From: an uncultured beta proteobacterium
Lineage (GTDB): Bacteria; Pseudomonadota; Gammaproteobacteria; Burkholderiales; Nitrosomonadaceae
Length of the DNA: 33,817 nucleotides
NCBI GenBank assembly: GCA_900696615.1
Contig: CAADGS010000103.1
Location: forward strand, 1-33,817
Direction: 5' to 3'
The notes beneath the pieces are model-generated. The model made no database searches. It worked only from the letters and a program-made list of their open reading frames with translations, and had not been told where the DNA came from. Of the stretch, positions 9,910 to 21,511 are shown in pieces. Made by a program: the position numbers and the translations under genes. How positions within the stretch are numbered: position 1 is the first letter of the stretch; every line of letters begins with the position of its first letter.

Positions 9910-11364
9910 TCACGAAACATCATCAATGCCATGCCTCAACTTCCATTCTCCTACTTTGATAATTTTCATGGTATTGGTACCACCGGATTTACCGACAGGC
10001 TCACCAATTGTCATAACCATGATATCACCATTGCGCACAACGCCACGGTTTAGCAATTCTTCTTCTGCCAGATTAAGAATAATTTCAGGATCGCTTAATC
10101 CTTCGCCAAATTCGACTGGATAAACACCTCTAAACAGCGTTACCCGCCTGCGTGTGTCTTCATTTGGACTTAACGCAAAAATAGGTACTTTGGAACTTCT
10201 ACGTGACATTAACAATGCGGTGACGCCACTTTGTGTCAGTGCGGCAATCGCGCGTATCTGCAAACCACTGGCTGTAAACATGGTTGCACGCGCAATAGCT
10301 TCTTCAATGGTTACTTGATTTACTGTTATCGCACGCCGATCATGACTAACCAAATATTCTTTTTCTGCTTCTTGGCAAACTCTTGCCATTGCTTCCACAG
10401 CTTCTACCGGGTATTCGCCGGCAGCCGATTCAGCCGACAGCATCACTGCATCGGTGCCATCCAGTACTGCATTAGCAACATCGGATACTTCAGCGCGTGT
10501 AGGAATTGGATTAGTAATCATGGATTCCATCATCTGTGTGGCGGTCACAACCAATTTATTATTTGTTCTTGCCGCGCGAATCATTCTTTTCTGCAACGCT
10601 GGAACTGCCGCATCACCAACTTCGACAGCCAGATCACCACGCGCAACCATAATGGCATCTGATGCTTCCAGGATATCATCCAGCGCAAGAATAGCCTCTG
10701 AGCGTTCAATTTTGGCCATAACCATACCTTTCCCGCCGGCTTCCTGCATCAACGCACGCGCTTGCCTGATATCATCGCCAGAGCGTACAAATGACACAGC
10801 TAAATAATCTGCGCCAAATTCTGCAGCCGTCTTGATATCTTCCAAATCCTTGCTAGTTAGTGCTGGTGCACCGAGTCCACCACCCTTGCGATTAATGCCT
10901 TTGTTGTTCGACAGCACACCACCTTGCTCAACCACACAAAATACCTGGTGTTCTCTAACTGAGGATACACTCAGCACAATACGGCCATCGTCGAGCATAA
11001 GAGTCGCACCCGCTTCTAAATCATTCGGTAATTCCTTGTAGTCCAGACCGACTCTCTCCTGGTTACCCAATTCGCAGAAAGAATCGAGGATAAATTGATC
11101 ACCGATTTCCAGTCTGATTTTACCGTGTTCAAATTTGCCAACCCGTATTTTGGGGCCTTGCAAATCGGCCAAAACACCTACGGTTCGTCCGGCTGCTCGC
11201 GCCAATGAGCGTGTCAATTCGGCAAATTCGATATGCTGTTCGCGTGTGCCATGTGAAAAATTGATCCGAACAACATCGACACCAGCCATAATCATGCGTT
11301 CTAATATTTTTGGATTAGTACAAGCCGGTCCCAGTGTCGCTACAATTTTTGTTCTTCGAATCAT
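9910..11364 (-). CDS. pyk: pyruvate kinase
   Basis: 484 aa; MIRRTKIVATLGPA, VMAKIERSEA, MVARGDLAVE, DAVMLSAESAAGEYP. Confidence 0.97.
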   Translation of the reverse strand: MIRRTKIVATLGPACTNPKILERMIMAGVDVVRINFSHGTREQHIEFAELTRSLARAAGRTVGVLADLQGPKIRVGKFEHGKIRLEIGDQFILDSFCELGNQERVGLDYKELPNDLEAGATLMLDDGRIVLSVSSVREHQVFCVVEQGGVLSNNKGINRKGGGLGAPALTSKDLEDIKTAAEFGADYLAVSFVRSGDDIRQARALMQEAGGKGMVMAKIERSEAILALDDILEASDAIMVARGDLAVEVGDAAVPALQKRMIRAARTNNKLVVTATQMMESMITNPIPTRAEVSDVANAVLDGTDAVMLSAESAAGEYPVEAVEAMARVCQEAEKEYLVSHDRRAITVNQVTIEEAIARATMFTASGLQIRAIAALTQSGVTALLMSRRSSKVPIFALSPNEDTRRRVTLFRGVYPVEFGEGLSDPEIILNLAEEELLNRGVVRNGDIMVMTIGEPVGKSGGTNTMKIIKVGEWKLRHGIDDVS

Positions 11365-11376
11365 AATCCGTATAAA

Positions 11377-12555
11377 TTAATGAGCACGCTTTTCCAATAT
11401 TTCCACTGCTGGTAATTTTTTGCCTTCTAAAAACTCAAGAAATGCACCACCTGCTGTTGATATATAAGATACCTTGTCGTAGATATCGTATTTCTGAATT
11501 GCCGCAATCGTATCGCCACCGCCCGCCAGCGTGAAAGCACTGGTTTCTGCAATTGCTCGGGCAATTTTCTCAGTTCCTGCGCCAAACTGGTCAAATTCAA
11601 ATACACCCACGGGTCCGTTCCAAACCACGGTACCGGCTCGCATAATAATGTCCACGAGTTCTTGGGCACTCTTTGGGCCGATATCAAAAATCATGTCATC
11701 GTCGGCAACATTACTGGCTTCCTTTAATACAGCCGGTTCGTTAGCATCAAATTTTTTACCCACCACAACATCGACAGCAATCGGTATCGAAGCATTACGT
11801 TTAGCCATTTTGTCCATTAAAGCCTTAGCTGTTGGCACTAAATCATCTTCGCACAAGGATTTTCCAACATTTTTTCCGGTAGCTTTTAAAAAAGTATTGG
11901 CAATGCCACCACCTACCACCAGTTGGTCAACTTTTTCAGATAGCGATTCGAGTACCGTCAGTTTGGTAGATACTTTCGAACCGCCAACAATCGCTACCAT
12001 TGGACGCGCCGGATTCAATAGCGCTTTGGTCAGTGCTTCCAGCTCCTCAGTGAGCAGAATGCCTGCGCAAGCCACAGGCGCGTATTTGGCAATGCCGTGT
12101 GTTGATGCCTCCGCACGATGTGCGGTGCCAAATGCATCCATCACGAATACATCACATAATTTCGCATACTTTTGTGCGGTTTCCTCCAAATTTTTCTTTT
12201 CACCTCTATTGATGCGGCAATTCTCCAACACCACCAATTCTCCATCGGCTAATTCAAAGCCAGTATCCAGCCAGTCCCGGATTAACCGTACTGACTTATT
12301 CAGTCGATTGGCAATATTATCTGCTACAGGCTTAAGCGAATTTTCTTCGCTCCATTGCCCTTCTTCCGGTCGACCAAGATGCGATGTCACCATGACTTTG
12401 GCGCCTTGTTTGAGACAGTGATTAATTGTGGCCATTGAGGCGGTTATACGTGCATCAGAGGTAACTTTACCATCTTTTACTGGCACGTTTAGATCAGAAC
12501 GGATAAATACCCGCTTACCTTTTAGATCAAGATCTACAACTTTGATAACTGACAC
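11377..12555 (-). CDS. pgk: phosphoglycerate kinase
   Basis: [32 protein letters not shown], [12 protein letters not shown]. ORF track starts at 12597, but a GTG at 12555 is preceded by GGAG at about 6 nt and gives the expected N-terminus [16 protein letters not shown]. Confidence 0.96.
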
Positions 12556-12583
12556 GGCAAACTCCAGAATTGTCTTTAAAAAT

Positions 12584-12611
12584 ATAAAGGATAGCAAACG
12601 CTACCCTTTAT
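12584..12611 (-). terminator. candidate intrinsic terminator/attenuator between gap and pgk
   Basis: Minus strand ATAAAGG-G-TAGC GTTT GCTA-T-CCTTTAT (11 pairs, one mismatch, 4-nt loop), then ATTTTTAAAG; 28 nt upstream of the pgk GTG. Confidence 0.5.
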
Positions 12612-12704
12612 GTGCGATCTTATTTCGAATTGAATATCAACGACGCTAAATTAACCAGGATTATCAATCCATCTCCTAATTGAACTAACGCATATTTGAA
12701 AGTT

Positions 12705-13758
<1,054 letters not shown>

Positions 13759-13783
13759 CTTTTATCAATCATAAGTTATTAAA

Positions 13784-15799
13784 TTAGAGAATATCTTTTA
13801 CTGTCTTAATCACATTTTCTACAGTAAAACCAAAATGCTTAAATAACACATCTGCAGGAGCCGATTCGCCAAAGGTATCAATACCTACTACCGCACCATC
13901 CAAACCGACATATTTTCGCCAGAAATCAGTTACACCAGCTTCAATAGCAACCCGCTTAATACCTTTTGGCAGCACACTGTCTTTATAGGATAATTCCTGT
14001 CGATCGAAAATATTGGTACATGGCATGGAAACCACCCGCACATAAATACCTTCTTGCGCCAATGCCTTTTGTGCATTCATTGCCAATCCCACTTCCGAGC
14101 CAGTGGCGATCAACACTGCTTGCGGCTTACCGTTATCTGCTTCCGATAAAACATAACCACCTTTGTCAATCAATTGAATAGTCGCTGCATCGCGTTTCTG
14201 AAATGGCAGATTTTGACGACTGAATATCAATATTGAAGGACCCGTTTTTCTTTCAATGGCACGCGCCCAACAAACTGTTGACTCAACCGTATCACATGGC
14301 CGCCATACATCCATATTGGGGATATATCGTAATGTAGCCGTTTGCTCTACAGGCTGATGCGTGGGTCCATCTTCACCCAAACCGATTGAGTCATGGGTGA
14401 AAACAAAAATATTACGAATTTTCATCAAGGCAGCCATGCGTAGGGCATTACGCGCATACTCAGAAAACATCAAGAAAGTGGCGCCATAAGGAATCAAGCC
14501 GCCATGCAGCGACAACCCATTCATAATTGCACTCATGCCGAATTCACGCACGCCATAATAAATATAATTACCGCCATTTAGCTGGTCAATTCCTTTTGAA
14601 CCAGACCATAAAGTCAAATTAGACCCAGCCAGATCAGCCGAACCACCAATCAATTCAGGCAACACAGGTGCCAAACCTTCAATGGCATTTTGCGAAGCTT
14701 TCCTGCTGGCAATTGTTTCCGCTTTCCCATTAACCTGATTGATTATACTTTGTACGTAATCATTCCAATTTGACGGCAGGTCACCCGCCATTCTGCGGTT
14801 AAATTCGGCAGCTTCGGCAGGATATCTTTCAGCATATTCTGCAAATTTCTCGCCCCATTCGGTTTCAAGCTTTTGACCTTTTGCTCTGGCATCCCATGCA
14901 CTATAGACATCTTGTGGAATTTCAAAAGGCGCATGATGCCAACCTATATGTGGACGAGCTGCAGCAATTTCTGCATCCCCTAATGCAGCACCATGTACGG
15001 AATGTGTATTAGCCATATTAGGCGAACCCATTCCAATCACAGTTTTACAGCAAATCATCGATGGCTTGTTATTTACTCGTTTCGCCTCCTCAATCGCAGC
15101 TTCAATCGCCATAGGATCGTGACCATTGACGTCAGGAACTACGTGCCAGCCATAGGATTCAAACCGCTTAGGTGTGTCGTCGGTAAACCAGCCTTCAACA
15201 TGGCCATCAATAGAAATACCGTTATCATCGTAAAAACAAATTAACTTACCCAAACCAAGCGTTCCCGCCAACGAGCAAGCTTCATGGGAGATGCCTTCCA
15301 TCATGCAGCCATCCCCCAGAAAAACATACGTATAATGATCTACGATATTATAACCAGGTCTATTAAATTCGGCAGCCAACACTTTTTCAGCAAGCGCCAT
15401 ACCTACTGCATTCGTAATTCCTTGACCTAGTGGGCCAGTTGTGGTCTCTACACCGGGTGTATAACCATATTCCGGATGTCCAGGCGTCTTAGAATGAAGT
15501 TGCCGAAACTGCTTCAACTCTTCCATCGGCAAATCGTAGCCGGTCAAATGCAACAAAGCATAAATCAGCATGGATCCGTGACCGTTGGAAAGGACAAATC
15601 GATCACGATCCACCCACATTGGATTACTAGGATTATGACGCAGATGGTGGATCCACAGCACCTCAGCGATTTCTGCCATTCCCATCGGCATTCCGGGATG
15701 TCCAGAATTGGCTTTTTGCACCGCATCCATCGCCAGTGCCCGAATCGCACTGGTCAAATTCCTAAACACCGGCGCGTCAAAATCCTTGAATGTACCCAT
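13784..15799 (-). CDS. tkt: transketolase
   Basis: 671 aa; [53 protein letters not shown]. Confidence 0.97.
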
Positions 15800-15966: not shown

Positions 15967-17229
15967 TCAATTCCCCCGCAATTTGATTCCCAACAATTTT
16001 ATTTTACGATAAAGATGTGTTCTCTCTAGGCCTGCTCGATCAGCAACCCGGGTCATATTGCCATTTTCTTGGTCAATCAACCGTTCGAAATAAGTTCTTT
16101 CAAACAAGTCACGCGCCTCGCGCAACGAGAGATCTAAAGGAATCTCTGGTGTCACAGAAGACGAAGCGGATTCAGGAAAAACCATGGCTTGCTGAACCGC
16201 ATCAACCGAGATTTCATCGCCTGTACATGTCAATGCCAAAGAATGCACTACACCCGTGAGCTGTGTCAAATTACCAGGCCAGTCATAATTTCGTAAGCAA
16301 TTTAATGCAGCAGTAGTGAATTGCAGCGATGAAGATGCTTCGCCCGACTCAACAAAACGCGATAAAATTTGGTTGGCTAATTCTGGAACGTCTTCCCGAT
16401 GCGCTCTCAATGGCGGAATTCCAATACTAAGGCTACTAAGCGTCTCAAACAGCTTAGGCAAAAAAACTCCTTGCGCCGCTAATTCAGCGAGCGGTTGTGA
16501 CGTTGCGCAAACCAACCGCACGTTATACTTATCCAACTTGCTTAACAACAGCAACAGCCCTTTTTGCGCCAATTTATTAATATCGCCTATATCCTTTAGA
16601 AACAACAAGCCATCCCGTGCCAGTTCCAATAAATCAAGCGGTGAATCGGCCAGAGATGTTAATGTTTCTGGTTCTACCCAAGGCGTATTTGGGCGGTGCA
16701 AAAAACGAGCGCAAATTTCTGCACCAACACCTGGTTCCCCCATTAATAACAGCGGTGACTTCAAATTGGCGACCTGCTCCAATTTTTTTCTTAGCTCAAC
16801 AATTAAAGCCCCTTTGCCCAAGCTAGCGAGTGAAAGTGTCATGTGCTGCTTACTCTGTCCACCCCGCAAGGCCTTAATGACAGTACTTAACAGCTTTTGC
16901 AGCGGTATCGGTTTCTCTAAATAACCAAAGGCACCTATACGCGTTGCCTCTATAGCCGTATCAATGGTGCCATGCCCCGACATCATGATGACCGGCATTG
17001 TTAGCAAACCATTGCTAGCCCATTCTTTCAAAAGAGTAATGCCATCAGTATCAGGCATCCAGATATCCAGCAGCACTAGATCAGGGCGCGTCTGATTTCT
17101 CCAAACTCGGGCTTGCTCTGCATTTTCTGCCAACGCTACGCGATAGCCTTCATCACGCAAAATTTCCGACAGCAATTCACGTATACCAATTTCATCATCA
17201 ACAACAAGTATTGTATTGTTTGTTATCAT
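15967..17229 (-). CDS. NtrX-like response regulator: REC, degenerate AAA+ domain and Fis-type HTH
   Basis: 420 aa; receiver LVLLDIWMPDTDG; degenerate Walker A GEPGVGAE; Walker B position GLLFLKDIGD; HTH GNMTRVADRAGLERTHLYRKIKLLGIK; next to NtrY-like kinase. Confidence 0.88.
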   Translation of the reverse strand: MITNNTILVVDDEIGIRELLSEILRDEGYRVALAENAEQARVWRNQTRPDLVLLDIWMPDTDGITLLKEWASNGLLTMPVIMMSGHGTIDTAIEATRIGAFGYLEKPIPLQKLLSTVIKALRGGQSKQHMTLSLASLGKGALIVELRKKLEQVANLKSPLLLMGEPGVGAEICARFLHRPNTPWVEPETLTSLADSPLDLLELARDGLLFLKDIGDINKLAQKGLLLLLSKLDKYNVRLVCATSQPLAELAAQGVFLPKLFETLSSLSIGIPPLRAHREDVPELANQILSRFVESGEASSSLQFTTAALNCLRNYDWPGNLTQLTGVVHSLALTCTGDEISVDAVQQAMVFPESASSSVTPEIPLDLSLREARDLFERTYFERLIDQENGNMTRVADRAGLERTHLYRKIKLLGIKLRGN

Positions 17230-17452
17230 TTAAAATTTTCTCCGCTGCCGAAATGTAATCAGCTTGTCTATGACTGTCAATTTCCAGAGGTATCGTATAT
17301 CGATTCTCCCCTTAACAGTCCCTTCAAAATACTTTCAAGGAAATCGATGCAACATAAAAACATGCGAAAAAGTGCGATTTATGCACAATAAATGAGCATT
17401 CTGCGTGTAACTATATCAAAATTATTACCCTTTCTTGGATCACTCCATTGAT

Positions 17453-19627
17453 TCAACTCCTTTTAATTTCTGGTTTTGACACGCTCTTGCTCACTGCAGG
17501 TAAAAATATCGATATTTGTGCGCCATGAGGTTTGATATTTTGAATATGAATTACACCTTCATGCTCCTCTACAATTTTCTTCACAATGGGCAAACCCAAT
17601 CCTGTTCCCTTTGGTTTAGTTGTTACATAGGGTTCAAAAACCCGGACCCTAATTTCATCTGAGAATCCGCATCCATTGTCACGCACAATGAGCTGCACAC
17701 CGCTTTGCACCACTTCAGTTTTCACTTCAATCAATGGGTCTAACGCATCGATTAATGCATCCTGAGCATTTTGCAACAAATTATGTAGCACCTGACGTAA
17801 CTGGGTGGAATCTCCTTTAATCATTGGCAAATCATCCGCCAGTGTTTGTTTGATAGGTATGAGCTTATTACGATCAATCGTCATGCTTGAAACCTCATAC
17901 ATAGACAAGACCTCACGCACCAAACGGTTAAAATCAAGCTGACGTAACTCAAGTTCGGGAATACGGGCATATTGACTGAATTCATTGACCATTTTCTTAA
18001 GCGCTTCAACCTGATTCACGATTGTCTCGGTCGATCGCTGCAATACCCGCGCATCGTCCTCATTAAGCTTGTGTATAAGTTTATGTTGCACACGTTCGGC
18101 GGAAAGCTGAATTGGCGTCAAGGGATTTTTTATTTCATGCGCCAACCGGCGCGCAACCTCACCCCATGCAACCGCACGCTGCACCTGTAAAAGATTAGTG
18201 ATATCATCAAACACCACTACGCCACCGCCGCCGGATATCTTTGGCAAACGCGTTCCCCTTATCAATAACACCTGGTTCTGACTGTCTACCAGGCGCGTTA
18301 TCTGACGCTGCCATACCCCCCCCACTTCAGAACCAAAACCTTCCTTAATCTCGGTTACCAGCGCTTGCAGTTGCGGCTCATTGTCTACACATCCTTCAAT
18401 GATTGCACCATCCAAACTAATCAGTGGCACTTGCAATATTTGTTCAGCGCTTCGATTAGCCTTGGATAAAGTCAACTGTTCGTCAAATACCAATACTCCC
18501 GAAGAAAGGTTTGCCAGAATACTTTCCAGATGCGCGCGCGCGCTTTCCACCTCTTGCTGATTATGCTGCGCGGTTGCTTGCGCTTCCTCCAACTGCTGCG
18601 TCATCAAATTAAAAGATTCCGTCAATACACCCAGTTCATCACTACTTTGAACCAAATGCCGACGGCTATAGTCCCCTTGCGCAATAGCACGCGTACCCTC
18701 TGCTAACATCCCTAACGGAGCGCTCAATCTTTCACTGAGCAACGAAGCAGAAGCAAGGGCCGAAAACAAAGACAACAATAGTGCCAAAGTCAGGGTAACG
18801 CTGTACAACCATGTCAGCCCCTGGCGGGACAACGAAAGCTCCTGATAATCTTCAATCCCTGCCTGTACTCGCTCGGCATCTTTTGCCAATTGCAGCGGAA
18901 CAGGTTGCAGAAGCTGAAGCATTTGAATATCTTCTTTAAGATTCAGCACATTAACAGGAACGACTACACGAAGGTACAAACCTTTATCGATAATGGACTC
19001 AACTGCACTATAACCCTTCTGAATTCTAATTTGCCGCATCACCATAGTGTTAGGCACGCCTGGAAAAAGCGTTAAATTATTTTCACTAGAAAATGCAATG
19101 ATTCTGCCATCAGGGCTAAAAAGGGTCGCTTCTTCAACTTGAGATTGCAAAAGTAATTCGTTTAGCACGAGTAAAGGCGGATTCGAGGATTCCGAGGACA
19201 GCATTAATGCGGTTGCCTGTGCTTTCTTTTGTAATTCAGCCAGCAGGCTGTCAAGCATAGTGTGACCGAGATTTAAGCCTCCCTCAAGTGCCCGTTCCAC
19301 TCTCACATCAAACCAAGATTCAATACTCTTCCCAAGAAACTGTACCGATACGGCATATACCAAGGCACCTGGAAGTATCGCCATCAATGAAAAAATTACC
19401 ATTAACCTTAATGCCAATTTTGAACCAAACACACCTGATTTCAGTCTGCGCCTGAATCGCCAGAGCGAAAACCCCACAATAATCATGAGGAATGCCACGA
19501 AAGCAATATTAATACCCAATAACAAGCGATATTTGTGTTCAAAAAACTCAGTATTGGCACCCGCTGTGGCCAGCAGAAACAACATGACTGCTCCCACCCC
19601 TGCACCAATAATAAGCACATATTTCAT
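17453..19627 (-). CDS. NtrY-like membrane sensor histidine kinase (TMs, HAMP, PAS, HisKA, HATPase)
   Basis: 724 aa; ARRLAHEIKNPLTPIQLSAERV H-box, LHNLLQNAQDA N-box, DNGCGF and KGTGLGLPIVKKI G-boxes. Confidence 0.92.
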   Translation of the reverse strand: MKYVLIIGAGVGAVMLFLLATAGANTEFFEHKYRLLLGINIAFVAFLMIIVGFSLWRFRRRLKSGVFGSKLALRLMVIFSLMAILPGALVYAVSVQFLGKSIESWFDVRVERALEGGLNLGHTMLDSLLAELQKKAQATALMLSSESSNPPLLVLNELLLQSQVEEATLFSPDGRIIAFSSENNLTLFPGVPNTMVMRQIRIQKGYSAVESIIDKGLYLRVVVPVNVLNLKEDIQMLQLLQPVPLQLAKDAERVQAGIEDYQELSLSRQGLTWLYSVTLTLALLLSLFSALASASLLSERLSAPLGMLAEGTRAIAQGDYSRRHLVQSSDELGVLTESFNLMTQQLEEAQATAQHNQQEVESARAHLESILANLSSGVLVFDEQLTLSKANRSAEQILQVPLISLDGAIIEGCVDNEPQLQALVTEIKEGFGSEVGGVWQRQITRLVDSQNQVLLIRGTRLPKISGGGGVVVFDDITNLLQVQRAVAWGEVARRLAHEIKNPLTPIQLSAERVQHKLIHKLNEDDARVLQRSTETIVNQVEALKKMVNEFSQYARIPELELRQLDFNRLVREVLSMYEVSSMTIDRNKLIPIKQTLADDLPMIKGDSTQLRQVLHNLLQNAQDALIDALDPLIEVKTEVVQSGVQLIVRDNGCGFSDEIRVRVFEPYVTTKPKGTGLGLPIVKKIVEEHEGVIHIQNIKPHGAQISIFLPAVSKSVSKPEIKRS

Positions 19628-20214
19628 TCGTGGCCTTTTATGAACAGCGGCTGCTCAGGTGTCGGTAGCTTCATACGCCACTCCAGCTTTTCCGAACTCA
19701 AATTCCATTGATTGGAACCTATTGCTTCCACTTGAAATGGCTTAGGCATTCGGGTCAGATCTAGCCATACTCGTAGCGAAGCAATATATTCCACATCCTG
19801 CCTTAGCTCAGACTTAATACTGACCGGAAAATCATGCAACTGACCTAACGCCTGCAATGCTTCTTGCAGCGTGTTAAAGCTCTGCGAATAGGATGGATAA
19901 TTCAAGTGATATTGGCGCGTAAGCGCATAATACCTTAATCCAACTCTTAACTTACTACGGGCGACCTCATCGTTCAGCCAATACCAGCGTGAATCAACCA
20001 AACTGAATTTAGTCGCAAAATAAAGCACAACGCCTTTCTCAAGCGCTTGCTCCAAAGTTGCATTGAGAATAATCTCAGAGTCGACGCTGATAAGAAACTC
20101 TTGATTGACCGCAGCCAAATTGACAGATTTTATTTGAATACTACCCGCTTGTGTGGCTGTAGCTGGCACGATAAAAAACAACGCTAAAAGAATAAGTCTG
20201 ACTTGCAGCAACAT
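19624..20214 (-). CDS. DUF4390-like exported protein
   Basis: Signal-peptide-like MLLQVRLILLALFFIVPATATQA; position between rsmB and the NtrY kinase. ORF track extends to 20271 inside rsmB; the start at 20214 is an inference. Confidence 0.7.
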   Translation of the reverse strand: MLLQVRLILLALFFIVPATATQAGSIQIKSVNLAAVNQEFLISVDSEIILNATLEQALEKGVVLYFATKFSLVDSRWYWLNDEVARSKLRVGLRYYALTRQYHLNYPSYSQSFNTLQEALQALGQLHDFPVSIKSELRQDVEYIASLRVWLDLTRMPKPFQVEAIGSNQWNLSSEKLEWRMKLPTPEQPLFIKGHE

Positions 20215-20233
20215 TATTTGCCACGTATTTTGA

Positions 20234-21511
20234 TTAAATTTTCTGCAACAAACTATAAAAGAATCCATCATGTTGAATATTGGGTAACAATTGTCCCTTG
20301 CTCAATGTAGCTTCAGCAAGTGGTAATGGCATCGCATCGGAATGATGTTTAAGAAACTCCTCTATCTGCACGCTATTTTCTTCTGCAAAGACCGAGCATG
20401 TTACATAAAGCAACTTACCATTCTTATTTAAAATTTTCCATAAAGCATTCAAAATTGCCTGTTGATTTGTTGCAAACCTAACCAGATCGTTCTCACGCCG
20501 CAACCATTTGATATCGGGATGTCGACACACCACACCGGAGGCAGAACATGGCACATCGGCCAAAATACGATCAAACGATCGTCCATCCCACCATGACTCA
20601 GGACTTGATGCATCTCCACAGACTAGTCGCTCGGCCGTCATTTGTAGTCGCGTAAGGTTCTGCTGTATGAGTGCAAGCCTTCCCGAATCATTATCCAGCA
20701 ATGTCAGCATCACATCTGCAATTTCCAACAAATGCATACCTTTACCACCTGGAGCAGCGCATGCATCCAGCACACGCATGCCGTCATGAACATCCAAAAA
20801 TTGTGCTGCAAACTGCGCACCCGCATCTTGAACAGACACTAAACCAACGCCAAAACCCGGTAAATCCTCCACGGTTACCGCTTTTTTTAATTGCAACGCA
20901 TCATGGTCTATCAATTCGGCGCACAGTGACTTCTCGGCCAGTAGCTGGCGATAATCACCTACATTAGTTTTACGTCGATTGACCCGTAAAGTCATGGGAG
21001 GATGTTTATTACCAGCCTCCAGGATCGCTCGAAAATCATGTGGGTATTGTGATCGTAATTTGTCAATCCACCATTGCGGATAAGAATAGCGACCCGTATC
21101 ACTCTCAACCGCTTTTTTTAATAGGCTTTCACGCTGACGAATAAAATTACGCAATACAGCATTCACCAATCCTTGCATCCCTCTTCCTTGAACCAATGAA
21201 CGCGAAGCCAAAACTGCCTGATTTACAACAGTATGCGATTGCGCTTTGCTAAATTGCAATTGATATAAACTCACCAACAACAGATACTGCAGCTGTTTGT
21301 TTCGTAGCGGCCGTTCCAGCAACAAACCAAGAATAGCGCTTAATTGCCCATAAAAACGCAATACACCATAACTCAAATCTTGAATAGCTCCCCTCTGCTG
21401 CTTCGATAATACGGTGTTTGCACGCCAAGTTTGCTGCAATACCGAAGTCAGGCTTTCGCCGGCCATGACCTTACTTATCGCAGAAGCTGCATCAAGCTGA
21501 ACCCTAATCAT
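20234..21511 (-). CDS. rsmB: 16S rRNA (cytosine(967)-C(5))-methyltransferase RsmB
   Basis: 425 aa; VLDACAAPGGKGMHLLEI, DVPCSASGVVCRHPDIKW, LLYVTCSVFAEEN. Confidence 0.95.
   Translation of the reverse strand: MIRVQLDAASAISKVMAGESLTSVLQQTWRANTVLSKQQRGAIQDLSYGVLRFYGQLSAILGLLLERPLRNKQLQYLLLVSLYQLQFSKAQSHTVVNQAVLASRSLVQGRGMQGLVNAVLRNFIRQRESLLKKAVESDTGRYSYPQWWIDKLRSQYPHDFRAILEAGNKHPPMTLRVNRRKTNVGDYRQLLAEKSLCAELIDHDALQLKKAVTVEDLPGFGVGLVSVQDAGAQFAAQFLDVHDGMRVLDACAAPGGKGMHLLEIADVMLTLLDNDSGRLALIQQNLTRLQMTAERLVCGDASSPESWWDGRSFDRILADVPCSASGVVCRHPDIKWLRRENDLVRFATNQQAILNALWKILNKNGKLLYVTCSVFAEENSVQIEEFLKHHSDAMPLPLAEATLSKGQLLPNIQHDGFFYSLLQKI

Follow-up and report, generated by a model that had tools for sequence, protein, structure and literature searches.

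NtrX response regulators, for which a review distinguishes four classes, are encoded beside their cognate histidine kinase NtrY. The gene order rsmB-plrP-ntrYX has been described for beta- and gammaproteobacteria (PMC13001219). PlrP, a DUF4390 protein, is the periplasmic partner of PlrS and, by genetic evidence, the third component of Bordetella PlrSR (PMC13001219). The response regulator PlrR must be phosphorylated and its phosphomimetic form is active (PMC13001219), and betaproteobacterial NtrX as a group is said to be without the AAA+ domain (PMC13001219, citing Bonato 2016). Caulobacter NtrX is reported to lack the GAFTGA motif (PMC10274813). In Sinorhizobium, phosphorylated NtrX binds CAAN2-5TTG, and overlap of this site with start sites accompanies repression (PMC9223101). 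Respiratory genes are affected in a Neisseria ntrX mutant (PMC12697260).

The window, the whole 33,817-nucleotide stretch of DNA analysed here, from an ammonia-oxidising Nitrosomonas, carries an ntrX gene preceded on the same strand by fmt, rsmB, a DUF4390 gene and ntrY (Table 1), so that both the adjacent ntrY and the upstream rsmB-DUF4390 pair which mark NtrYX loci in beta- and gammaproteobacteria are present. Its product has the receiver with phospho-acceptor Asp and the NtrX-type Fis HTH of the NtrX family. The top NCBIfam model for this protein is NF051870 (NtrX), with 259.9 bits over residues 6–415, which is below the curated cut-off of 600 bits. This model is no defining feature in itself, and it is the synteny, the best hits and the ortholog series that identify the protein as NtrX from its sequence, in agreement with the first-pass annotation. 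The genes that follow ntrX in the same orientation, those for transketolase and gap, pgk and pyk, make up a Calvin-cycle/glycolysis cluster (9910–15799).

The gap between ntrY and ntrX (17230–17452) is 223 bp in the window, 55–150 bp in most close relatives and 292 and 309 bp in two of them; outside the close relatives its median is about 2 bp. The gap contains a weak promoter candidate, which may be compared with the separate promoter of plrR in Bordetella. Judged by eye, a look-alike of its TTGACA-N17-TACATT pattern exists in several close Nitrosomonas relatives, and the count of promoter-like sites in the ntrX upstream region is no higher than chance. Alignment of the ntrY-ntrX gap among relatives revealed no convincing operator.

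The first-pass annotation had described an open frame, given without strand, with an intact receiver and a dismantled AAA+ ATPase domain. The frame is real, encodes 420 residues and lies on the minus strand, and the receiver residues D11, D12, D55, S84 and K106 are all in place. The four altered motifs that it quoted, GEPGVGAE, GLLFLKDIGD, FLPKLFETL and WPGNLTQL, were found exactly as written, and no ELFG..GAFTGA stretch exists. In alignment, the window protein lacks the ELFGSE..YGLLEQANGG stretch of gammaproteobacterial NtrX. Among the features of bacterial enhancer-binding proteins, only the AAA+ fold itself is retained (PF14532, AlphaFold and Foldseek), while the Walker A Lys, the Walker B Asp, the arginine fingers, the sensor II Arg and the GAFTGA loop are all gone. 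The canonical Sigma54_activat model PF00158 matches the AAA+ part in two partial pieces only. The motif comparison is sound because four canonical sigma54 activators encoded in the same genome, used as an internal control, show intact Walker A, Walker B and GAFTGA motifs. The remnant still comprises 217 residues (137–353), so the window protein is not of the PlrR type, in which the AAA+ domain is absent.

Table 1. Features of the ntrX locus in the window (positions of the whole stretch)
Feature	Position	Strand	Support
ntrX, 420-aa response regulator (REC, dead AAA+, lid, Fis HTH)	15967..17229	minus	
Receiver domain, residues 7-117	16879..17211	minus	PF00072, 1.7e-29
Phospho-acceptor Asp55 codon	17065-17067	minus	all five receiver signature residues retained
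Degenerate AAA+ core, residues 137-274	16408..16821	minus	PF14532 Sigma54_activ_2, 4.5e-44
Walker A position, GEPGVGAE at residues 164-171, with Ala170 in place of Lys	16717..16740	minus	sequence and ortholog alignment
Shortened stretch at the expected place of the helix and the GAFTGA-bearing L1 loop	16609..16683	minus	alignment to gammaproteobacterial NtrX
Former Walker B GLLFLKDIGD, residues 207-216	16582..16611	minus	sequence and orthologs
Arginine-finger region without its two Arg, FLPKLFETL, residues 256-264	16438..16464	minus	sequence and orthologs
AAA+ lid, residues 275-353, folded	16171..16407	minus	PF25601, 8e-15, and AlphaFold
WPGNLTQL in lid, sensor II Arg gone	16258-16281	minus	sequence
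Fis-type HTH, residues 366-417, recognition region LERTHLYRKIKLLGI	15979..16134	minus	PF02954, 5.6e-5
ntrY, cognate histidine kinase (HAMP, PAS, HisKA, HATPase)	17453..19627	minus	Pfam
DUF4390 protein, PlrP homolog	19624..20271	minus	PF14334, 2.6e-44
rsmB, conserved upstream neighbour	20234..21511	minus	
Possible sigma70-type promoter of ntrX, TTGACA-N17-TACATT	17252..17280	minus	weak

The AlphaFold model gives pLDDT values of 75–95, mostly at least 89, for blocks of the AAA+ core, and block means of mostly 85–95 for core and lid together; the pTM is 0.53 and the arrangement of the domains is uncertain. In Foldseek searches, the best solved fold neighbours were full-length Brucella NtrX (5m7n/5m7p), followed by NtrC1, NtrC4, LuxO, FleQ and VpsR. 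The closest sequence match of the AAA+ stretch is PDB 3co5 (E 9.6e-20), itself a dead domain, so that a solved structure of this kind already exists.

To see how far the motif loss extends, 80 orthologs from other genomes, with identities from 92 down to about 50%, were compared. Among the residues counted at the Walker A Lys position, no Lys was found in any of these 80 orthologs, and Lys was also absent from the commonest residues (Ala, Phe, Val, Ile and Pro) of 127 degenerate-type betaproteobacterial NtrX sequences. Therefore, the loss is due neither to chance nor to a sequencing error, and a local mutation is ruled out by the same motif loss in the orthologs. No close ortholog with canonical motifs, which would have undone the first-pass reading, was found in the 80 or in the wider set of 127. 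In the latter, Asp or Glu mostly stands in place of the first arginine finger. The signature residues of receiver and HTH are invariant or nearly so in the 80 orthologs; the five receiver residues are invariant across all 186 NtrX sequences examined, and R403 and R408 of the HTH are invariant in both the degenerate set (n = 127) and the set without AAA+.

The locus was further read in 80 other genome stretches, two of which (L142 and L143) held a paralog instead; in one (L193), ntrY and the DUF4390 gene were present and no NtrX was detected in the fetched stretch. Betaproteobacteria were taken as the order Burkholderiales of GTDB and compared with 39 Gammaproteobacteria outside this order. In the 39, NtrX is mostly about 455 aa long, Walker A has Lys in 29 and Arg in 8 of them, and 32 keep the first arginine finger; the Walker B Asp is already variable (13/39). 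Betaproteobacterial NtrX is about 420 aa long and has the dead AAA+ form, and at 20 Burkholderiales loci it measures only 207–270 aa after trimming, consisting of receiver, linker and HTH. These AAA-less loci keep rsmB, the DUF4390 gene, ntrY and the gene order. GAFTGA was found in none of the 39 gammaproteobacterial proteins and in none of the 186 sequences overall. Since it is absent even from Gammaproteobacteria that mostly keep Walker A, its loss is an older NtrX feature that lies outside the dismantling specific to Betaproteobacteria. The dead state itself is ancestral to all sampled Betaproteobacteria. The first-pass annotation was right that the window protein lacks GAFTGA, which is missing in 186/186 NtrX and so is not part of its dismantling; its reading is corrected in that the motif loss is no peculiarity of the window protein.

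Partial erosion of NtrX motifs, often Walker A Lys to Arg, was also observed in 13 of the 39 Gammaproteobacteria (L163, L166, L180-L182, L184, L186, L190-L192, L194, L197 and L199), which suggests parallel ATPase decay. Three records titled as 'Bordetella parapertussis' MAGs (L015, L019 and L068) carry full-length dead-AAA+ NtrX; these titles are probably wrong, as the NtrX member of Bordetella is reported to be without AAA+.

In the NtrY tree, a branch with full support separates the dead and AAA-less forms, taken together, from all other sequences, and well-supported branches keep the AAA-less forms apart in three positions. When the AAA-less forms were constrained to one clade, the log-likelihood was 108 lower and the constraint was rejected by the AU test (p-AU 1.2e-34), which rules out a single origin. 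The tree of the NtrX receiver and HTH, based on a shorter alignment, also needs three changes, without strong support, and does not force them. Because of the three placements, and because a domain once lost is unlikely to be regained, the AAA+ domain was excised at least three times from the dead form within Betaproteobacteria, assuming no recombination within the locus. We consider it rather likely that the locus records a staged series at one syntenic position, in which the sigma54 loop was lost first, the ATPase was then lost in the betaproteobacterial ancestor and at least three independent excisions followed, the remnant having long been a selected non-catalytic scaffold.

With a probability of about 0.8, the window NtrX is a phosphorylation-controlled, sigma54-independent DNA-binding regulator whose AAA+ remnant is a folded, non-catalytic scaffold. 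We infer phosphorylation, DNA binding, the use of sigma70 and the scaffold role from sequence and from analogy with described systems; the sigma70-type, spacer reading is preferred as the simplest because the phospho-switch and the DNA-binding region do not change, and it is the motor that changes, dies and disappears. NtrY would phosphorylate Asp55, with its activity probably tuned by the DUF4390/PlrP-like protein, and the dimer or oligomer state of phospho-NtrX would then shift. The Fis-type HTH would bind promoter sites, and transcription by the sigma70-type polymerase would be raised or lowered through ordinary contact or occlusion. The AAA+ remnant would neither hydrolyse ATP nor contact sigma54, although it may bind nucleotide non-catalytically, and would serve, between receiver and HTH, as a folded spacer or a scaffold for the dimer; an unstructured linker could take its place.

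It is known that c-di-GMP tunes FleQ and VpsR. The remnant might likewise have become a sensor that tunes DNA binding when its altered pocket binds a nucleotide, second messenger or partner protein. The folded state of the domain, the purifying selection on it, the presence of FleQ and VpsR among its structural neighbours and the conservation of P-loop Gly167 and of the acidic residue after the lost Lys are all in line with such a role. However, few AAA+ and lid residues are invariant among the betaproteobacterial sequences, most of them of a structural kind (G167, Q222, P272, P282, W317 and L324), and the system survived the dropping of the domain at least three times, which makes a sensor unlikely.

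Less likely still is that the AAA+ part is slowly eroding toward deletion without a role. The AAA+ dN is about 3-fold that of the receiver, and column entropy is higher in the dead AAA+ of the betaproteobacterial set than in gammaproteobacterial NtrX (1.95 versus 1.76); the partly eroded gammaproteobacterial forms and the repeated deletions would also fit slow decay. In contrast, dN/dS in the two least saturated pairs was 0.039 and 0.048 for the AAA+ part and 0.028 and 0.039 for the lid, compared with 0.012 and 0 for the receiver and 0.013 and 0 for the HTH; in most other pairs synonymous changes were saturated and dN/dS is only rough. The orthologs have open frames and near-constant length, and the fold of the window protein is predicted with confidence. 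These results indicate that the AAA+ part changes more quickly than the adjoining domains yet is clearly under purifying selection, and with the open frames they rule out a pseudogene. The suggestion of functional reassignment rather than neutral decay was thus upheld by conservation and selection.

RpoN was present in 72 of 80 genomes and absent in eight. Three of the latter (G040, G085 and G089, 98–100% complete) have neither of the two RpoN domains searched for nor a strong PF00158 protein, and still retain dead-AAA+ NtrX (L149, L148 and L151); two others (G031 and G076) lack RpoN and retain AAA-less NtrX. Because RpoN is absent there, NtrX in these five genomes cannot act through sigma54. 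Three genomes of family f41 (G041, G086 and G127) are also without RpoN; the NtrX query had no match in the first two and a weak one in the third, and they seem to have lost the whole NtrX system. The window genome has rpoN besides its four intact activators, so a global loss of sigma54 is ruled out as the cause. A role as sigma54 enhancer-binding activator, for example in mixed oligomers with one of these intact activators, is extremely improbable for a protein without GAFTGA, arginine fingers or Walker Lys, whose form persists in genomes without rpoN and whose relatives lost the whole domain. The independence from sigma54 and ATP hydrolysis that had been proposed for the window protein is supported.

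The phospho-switch with a scaffold remnant would mean that a simple phospho-switch arose stepwise and repeatedly from an ATP-driven sigma54 activator. Betaproteobacterial NtrX is not uniformly AAA-less, since many lineages carry a dead AAA+, and the labels "sigma54-dependent regulator" and "nitrogen assimilation regulator" are misleading for a large NtrX group. The series provides natural chimeras for testing the role of a pseudo-AAA+ domain.

The kind of protein is largely known already, from alphaproteobacterial NtrX without GAFTGA, betaproteobacterial NtrX reported without AAA+ and the dead domain of 3co5. The staged series, a widespread dead-AAA+ intermediate and repeated excision were not found described in the literature searched, which did not include Atack 2013 and Fernandez 2017. 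Brucella abortus NtrX (5m7n/5m7o/5m7p) shares the domain order, the NtrY partner and the lack of GAFTGA, and aligns over the whole chain (E 1.1e-55). It keeps a GPSGAGKE Walker A, LDE in Walker B and FREDLFHRL, whereas the betaproteobacterial form lost all three and is about 30 residues shorter. Brucella NtrX reportedly binds ATP and does not hydrolyse it. The 3co5 domain, from a putative response regulator of Neisseria gonorrhoeae, resembles the window AAA+ in being dead, with GEAGSPFE, no GAFTGA stretch and LYVGDIAQ; its sequence nearly equals the NtrX of locus L147, but only the isolated domain is solved, and about one third of its residues are identical to those of the window protein. Bordetella PlrR shares the locus rsmB-plrP-ntrY/plrS-ntrX/plrR and depends on phosphorylation (PMC13001219), but its betaproteobacterial group is reported without AAA+, whereas a folded remnant of this domain survives in the window protein. 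The GAFTGA-less NtrC proteins of Rhodobacter capsulatus and Caulobacter are of NtrC type and act at sigma70-type promoters (PMC10274813). R. capsulatus NtrC still needs ATP binding, and the Caulobacter protein is predicted to bind and hydrolyse ATP; in contrast, the window NtrX has lost the nucleotide-site motifs.
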